In this document: piece after piece, positions 44,581 to 45,179 of the stretch | Layout of the letters: each line of letters opens with the position of its first letter | Position numbering within the stretch: position 1 is the first letter of the stretch | Assembly (NCBI RefSeq): GCF_000160575.1 | Contig: NZ_GG697133.1 | Location: 1-64,000, forward strand | From: Weissella paramesenteroides ATCC 33313 | GTDB taxonomy: Bacteria; Bacillota; Bacilli; Lactobacillales; Lactobacillaceae | Direction of reading: 5' to 3' | Length of the DNA stretch: 64,000 bases | Translations under genes and position numbers: made by a program | The notes under the pieces: model-generated | What the model was told of the DNA's origin: nothing | The model's database searches: none | The model's input: only the letters and a program-made list of their open reading frames with translations

Positions 44581-44751
44581 TTATTTGTGCTTTGCCCGAA
44601 ATAGATCATTGAATGGTGACTCCCCACTATGTGCCACCTGAGTCAAAAACATCTTAACGGCTTGCTGTGTCGTTAACCCGTTTTCTTTAAATACTGTATC
44701 TGCTGCATTGCGTACTTCTTCTTCAACCCGAATTTGAATTAATTTTTCCAT
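44581..44751 (-). CDS. orphan RelB/DinJ-family antitoxin
   Basis: A 56-residue protein read directly from the DNA. It begins MEKLIQIRVEEEVRNAAD, a ribbon-helix-helix start typical of RelB/DinJ antitoxins, then GLTTQQAVKMFLTQVA. The tail SGESPFND is the toxin-binding type. GGGGGG lies about nine bases before the ATG. No RelE/YafQ toxin follows: the terminator comes 25 bases after the stop. It may be an orphan antitoxin or a repurposed regulator. Confidence 0.8.
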   Translation of the reverse strand: MEKLIQIRVEEEVRNAADTVFKENGLTTQQAVKMFLTQVAHSGESPFNDLFRAKHK

Positions 44752-44909: not shown

Positions 44910-44944
44910 AAAAAAACACACTGTCAAATAATGACAGTGTGTTT
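44910..44944 (-). terminator. terminator of the small RNA
   Basis: 13-base stem AAACACACTGTCA/TGACAGTGTGTTT, five-base loop, then seven T on the minus strand. Confidence 0.9.
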
Positions 44945-45143
44945 CATTTGGCATTGCTAAGATTGACGCGTCTTAGCTCACGTGATGGTTACCCACCAGT
45001 CAACGTACACCCATTAGGTAACCCTAAAGGTAGTCATGTGCAGTAAAGCAAGTTCCACAACTTGCTTTACACCCTCCAGTAATACGACTGTTAATGAGGG
45101 CCGTTTATCAAAGATCATTTAAGATCCTCTCGACTCATCGCAT
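44910..45143 (-). ncRNA. structured small RNA gene, possibly 6S RNA / Lacto-usp type
   Basis: About 234 bases between a strong promoter and an intrinsic terminator, with no credible ORF. Hairpins on the minus strand include CCCTC/GAGGG with inner CAGT/ACTG, a perfect 12-base stem GTAAAGCAAGTT/AACTTGCTTTAC, GGTTACC/GGTAACC, and CTAAGA/TCTTAG before the terminator. A known motif, Lacto-usp, proposed as a 6S RNA, occurs next to usp genes in lactic acid bacteria. Here the RNA is divergent from usp, so identity is inference. tmRNA and RNase P RNA signatures are absent. Confidence 0.65.
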
Positions 45144-45150
45144 AAAAATA

Positions 45151-45179
45151 ATTATAGCACAATGACTACCATCAAACAA
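45151..45179 (-). promoter_or_regulatory. promoter of the small RNA
   Basis: TTGTTT, 17 bases, TATAAT with TG one base upstream (extended -10, TGCTATAAT). The start is expected near 45143. Confidence 0.7.

Follow-up and report, generated by a model that had tools for sequence, protein, structure and literature searches.

A Ref68/Lacto-3-type small-RNA gene in Weissella paramesenteroides, with a covarying 3' domain and an apparent kinship to streptococcal MarS

The 64,000-nucleotide stretch of Weissella paramesenteroides ATCC 33313 DNA analysed here (the window) raises the question of whether a structured RNA is really made beside its usp gene and, if so, which RNA it is and what it does. A sequence-only reading had proposed an unidentified RNA gene at this position, divergent from usp. 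Here, we confirm that positions 44911-45143 of the minus strand are a real small-RNA gene with several conserved hairpins, assign it to a family, and then weigh the functions that such an RNA might have, from regulation in trans to the replacement of a missing 6S RNA.

An RNA gene with its own promoter, terminator and conserved fold

The region folds far better than its shuffled counterparts, a 261-nt stretch reaching -97.5 kcal/mol vs -62.5 +/- 4.8 (z -7.25, 0/200 shuffles). Since the fold of the plus strand is likewise strong (z -8.4), the strand cannot be read from folding, and the minus strand is therefore assigned from the promoter, the direction of the terminator and the Rfam match (Table 1). 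On that strand, an extended -10 element (TG at 45159-45158, TATAAT at 45156-45151) is separated by a 17-nt spacer from a weak -35-like TTGTTT (45179-45174), and from the -10 box together with the conserved 5' end we infer that the RNA starts at about 45143. The terminator was absent from the list produced by a simple terminator scan, probably because its stem runs into the T tract. The promoter, strand and coordinates of the sequence-only reading thus hold, as does its orientation, with promoter and terminator both pointing away from usp. Promoter and terminator features also appear to be kept in relatives, as in a free-standing small-RNA gene of the Ref68 type.

Table 1. Features of the RNA gene, with positions in the window and the evidence for each
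Feature	Positions	Strand	Evidence
Full RNA, Ref68/asd-type, 233 nt	44911..45143	-	Rfam match; full-length conservation in 24 distinct Weissella sequences
Promoter	45151..45179	-	sequence; -10-like box at similar distance upstream of most homologues read
RF02840 (Ref68/Lacto-3) match, 93 nt, 5' part of RNA	45050..45142	-	62.7 bits
Invariant 5' end AUGCGAUGAGUCGA	45130..45143	-	24/24 Weissella
P1 hairpin region	45108..45129	-	each Weissella sequence folded locally
P2 stem-internal loop-stem, apical loop CGUAUU (45086-45081)	45071..45101	-	covariation
P3 hairpin, loop segment UUGUGGAA (45060-45053)	45043..45070	-	loop invariant 24/24; stem covaries
P4, closing helix UGCAC/GUGUA, conserved bulge AUGACUA (45037-45031)	45006..45042	-	100% paired
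P5 hairpin	44983..44998	-	100% paired; 5/6 pairs altered on both sides
H-type pseudoknot, CGUG (44982-44979) with CGCG of P6 loop (44970-44967)	44967..44982	-	covariation
P6 hairpin	44956..44977	-	100% paired; 4/6 pairs altered on both sides
AUGCCAA, conserved, before terminator	44948..44954	-	GCCAA invariant in Weissella
Intrinsic terminator	44911..44942	-	covarying stem (44942-44916) and T run

The structure was derived with RNAalifold from an alignment of 24 distinct full-length Weissella sequences. The consensus comprises P2 to P6 and the terminator, and in 33 of its 56 pairs at least one sequence has both bases changed. Compensatory changes, which had been set beforehand as the test of the gene, are abundant: once the pseudoknot and two long-range helices are included, 35 of 60 pairs carry changes on both sides and 95.7% of cells are paired, with 0/500 shuffles as good for the whole RNA, in controls that do not wholly remove shared ancestry from the covariation statistics. 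The 3' domain of ~110 nt (P4, P5, P6 and the pseudoknot), taken by itself, is 100% paired with 72 double-change cells vs 17.3 in shuffles, slid versions of it pairing at most 47%. Within it, a compensatory change in P4 is seen in two of the loci (L050/L056), and the pseudoknot taken alone is 100% paired in the 24 sequences, with 12 double-change cells vs 3.1 in shuffles and with one pair occurring as CG/GC/AU and another as UA/UG/GC. Two long-range helices (GCG/UGC and GUCGA/UUGAC) are formed in 98-100% of the same sequences but are almost invariant; they suggest a possible long-range closure of the Weissella RNA, by which its 5' end may be hidden.

Conservation extends beyond the genus. The 5' end is unchanged except for its first base in 29 other Lactobacillaceae and near-identical in Streptococcus-type loci; GACUA after P3 and the AUGCCAAAC motif are common to Weissella, Fructobacillus and Convivina, Oenococcus being more divergent, and AUGCCAA is present in Fructobacillus, Convivina and two MAGs. 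A general pseudoknot of the 5' AUGCG with the P2 loop was considered and rejected: it can form in Weissella (CGUAU/CGCAU), but the loops of other genera, CGGAUU, do not allow it. As a separate observation, the RNA copy of Weissella confusa FS54 (L037 / L095) departs from the others beyond the CACGTG in its 3' domain, and the match of its usp neighbour is incomplete, so that this is likely to be either a poor assembly or a truncated copy of the RNA.

Ref68/Lacto-3 and asd/MarS, apparently one Lactobacillales family

The RNA had been called unidentified, a label that no longer stands: a cmscan of the 64-kb window returned a single match over threshold, to RF02840 (Ref68/Lacto-3), at 62.7 bits vs a gathering cut-off of 44. 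Next in this region comes RF01732 (asd/MarS), whose match has a 5' end close to that of RF02840; because it scores only 19.7 bits (E 0.34) vs a cut-off of 84 the RNA in the window is not filed as asd. The RF02840 model and the Weissella RNA share the 5' end, P1, P2, P3 and the single copy, but the model has 124 positions and ends after P3, whereas the Weissella RNA runs ~110 nt further through P4, P5, P6 and the pseudoknot; additional P1 hairpins, found in most Lactobacillaceae, are missing from it. A literature search on the Ref68 RNA found no paper.

RF02840 occurs as a single copy in all 28 Weissella genomes (above cut-off in 26) and matches 262 of 301 sampled Lactobacillaceae, one copy each, while asd is found in genomes of family f4, taken for Streptococcus, with weak matches in two more families. 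Of 290 genomes of the order, 116 contain the 13-mer TGCGATGAGTCGA, mostly those of families f1, f4, f5 and f7; in the remaining families and beyond the order it is rare, near the level of a reversed control. Neither an RF02840 match nor this 13-mer is present in a few Lactobacillaceae genera with complete genomes, above all g37 (e.g. G037). The one g37 genome tested carries a strong Lacto-usp match (96 bits).

The two Rfam entries, for which no clan is listed, appear to describe the same RNA. Among 20 loci from other families and genera, 16 are matched by both RF01732 and RF02840 at E <=0.01, in the same orientation, the 5' ends of the two matches differing by one base; since it was the asd model that had selected these loci, the independent match is that of Ref68. 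A good example is L108, which scores 53.4 bits with asd and 41.1 bits with Ref68. The Ref68 model matches streptococcal asd loci (L072, E 0.0015; L059, E 0.007) and the asd model matches lactobacillar and enterococcal Ref68 loci (L020 and L092, both E 0.01), these E values already counting all 4227 Rfam families, and co-matches with nearly the same 5' end number more than 20 in all. Because two Rfam models match the same loci at nearly the same 5' ends, we read Ref68/Lacto-3 and asd/MarS as one Lactobacillales RNA family of common ancestry, a case that rests on the two independent models, since in alignments of the core sequences P1 and P2 do not line up from family to family. Streptococcal asd/MarS has the same AUGCGAUGAGUCGA start, P1-P2-P3 order and UGUG-containing P3 loop as the Weissella RNA, but it is shorter, has another closing helix and carries the P3 loop UUGUGUGAACC in place of UUGUGGAA. 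At one asd/Ref68 locus (L123:382-499, minus strand), RF03066 (COG3610-DE) also matches, at 43 bits and below its cut-off, and this entry is possibly a third one for the same family.

Probable base pairing in trans, possible fixed partner

Our analysis favours, as the probable reading, an independently transcribed regulatory RNA that acts in trans and is the Weissella member of the Ref68 and asd/MarS family. The best-studied relative is MarS, an independent transcript of 161 nt by 5' RACE whose main band runs near 80 nt (PMC3542284), and which binds the mga 5' UTR in gel shifts, binding being lost when CC 88-89 is changed (PMC5613026). Counted on the streptococcal locus L059, rather than on S. 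pyogenes itself, positions 88-89 fall on the CC within the P3 loop UUGUGUGAACC, to which the Weissella P3 loop is homologous. Because MarS pairs with mga and the P3 loops are homologous, trans base-pairing is inferred for the Weissella RNA, both that it pairs with mRNAs and which loop it would use. In this scheme, the RNA would be made from its own promoter, start at AUGCGAUGAGUCGA and fold into P1, P2 and P3, followed in Weissella by P4, P5, P6 and the pseudoknot domain and then by the terminator; the P3 loop and possibly the 5' end would be exposed to pair with mRNAs, and the 3' domain would protect or present these contact elements.

A different use of the same conserved elements is the serious main rival, and we hold it to be possible, if clearly short of probable: the invariant 5' end and loops would contact a single conserved partner, protein or RNA, as 6S does with RNA polymerase, in a housekeeping-like ribonucleoprotein, the MarS-mga pairing being a later, local use. 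The near-constancy of the 14-nt 5' end and of the loops across the order exceeds the needs of a drifting antisense regulator, and the order as a whole does not share mga as a target, both of which count against the regulatory reading. A fixed partner is also in keeping with the single copy in most sampled genomes of several families, with single-stranded elements that are better conserved than stems, with the possible long-range closure and supported pseudoknot in Weissella, and with the reported stability of MarS (PMC5613026). On the other hand, no such partner is known, some complete Lactobacillaceae genera do without the RNA, and S. pyogenes without marS grows normally in rich medium. More speculatively, and with rather low confidence, Ref68/Lacto-3 and asd/MarS together may be one ancient, near-universal RNA of several Lactobacillales families whose shared core function is not mga control and works through a fixed partner at the invariant 5' end and loops, and which gained its pseudoknotted 3' domain in Weissella and partly in near relatives; it would then be an unrecognised housekeeping-type ribonucleoprotein RNA.

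Neighbouring genes, short frames and 6S

The gene order of Weissella bears on whether the RNA is instead a cis-acting leader or attenuator of the relB-like, holin-like or hprK genes downstream. In nearly all Weissella loci, the RNA lies in the same orientation upstream of a holin-like gene and hprK, in some with a relB-like gene between, and the asd RNA was originally predicted to be cis-acting. However, the RNA has its own terminator, a further TATAAT precedes the next gene downstream, and MarS is transcribed independently. Outside Weissella, the RNA is followed by a lemA-like, an asd-like or an unrelated gene, and 4 of 12 loci have the next gene in the opposite orientation. As the downstream genes vary in this way, the RNA is an independent gene and not a leader, an idea that we consider very unlikely. 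The usp neighbour is likewise incidental, adjoining the RNA in only part of Weissella. Just downstream of the RNA in the window, 44581-44751 (minus strand) holds a RelB-type antitoxin-like gene (PF04221).

A small mRNA or dual-function RNA encoding a short peptide is more improbable still. The window does hold a 34-aa frame (ATG at 45118, minus strand) preceded by a Shine-Dalgarno (SD)-like AGAGG, and the pneumococcal homologue srf-17 (asd RNA of S. pneumoniae) has a six-codon frame, rio56, with a strong initiating-ribosome signal over a segment containing AAGGAGGU (PMC9426450). This signal may reflect 30S binding to an SD-like segment. For F38, the TIGR4 homologue of srf-17, a nasopharynx fitness of 0 is listed (PMC9426450). 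Apart from the window, however, the frame is present in the two closest relatives alone and is not kept in other Weissella, which speaks against a peptide gene and bears out the earlier statement that the transcript lacks an ORF.

The usp gene nearby, which the locus shares with Lacto-usp (RF01710) and 6S (RF00013) RNAs, together with the absence of a canonical 6S above cut-off in all 28 Weissella genomes, could suggest that this RNA replaces the missing 6S; structure and locus in this genome differ from both. RF01710 has no match in the region at E up to 10 and none in the genome, although the model does match two other Lactobacillaceae, and RF00013 matches neither the region nor the genome. 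These scans agree with the sequence-only reading, which had doubted both identities, and its description of several hairpins rather than a 6S-like rod holds as well: in place of a single bubble-containing hairpin there are several local helices backed by covariation. Furthermore, streptococci carry the family alongside a true 6S (both listed in PMC6212727), and the weak 6S matches of two Weissella lie on contigs other than those of Ref68. In lactic acid bacteria, 6S is located between rarA and uspA, and the Weissella 6S is described as non-canonical (PMC8414754); here, contig C12, not the contig of the RNA, carries rarA and another uspA, along with a stretch of their own that holds no conserved gene. 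With no model match, the wrong locus and the wrong structure, a 6S or Lacto-usp identity is ruled out as far as the sequence can tell, the least credible of the readings. The stretch on C12 (L106:2026-2290, minus strand, on G000:C12) has a TATAAT and a terminator, lies between rarA and a small gene plus uspA, and shows no conserved gene and no 6S or Lacto-usp model match; from its syntenic position it is a candidate for the non-canonical Weissella 6S.

Most lactic acid bacteria, food and gut species among them, have an RNA of the Ref68 type, once per genome. As two families kept separate in the database appear to be one, what is known of streptococcal MarS becomes a starting point for Ref68, and the pseudoknot domain, backed by covariation, and the unvarying 5' end offer precise targets for mutation in a harmless laboratory species, by which a role common to the order becomes testable.
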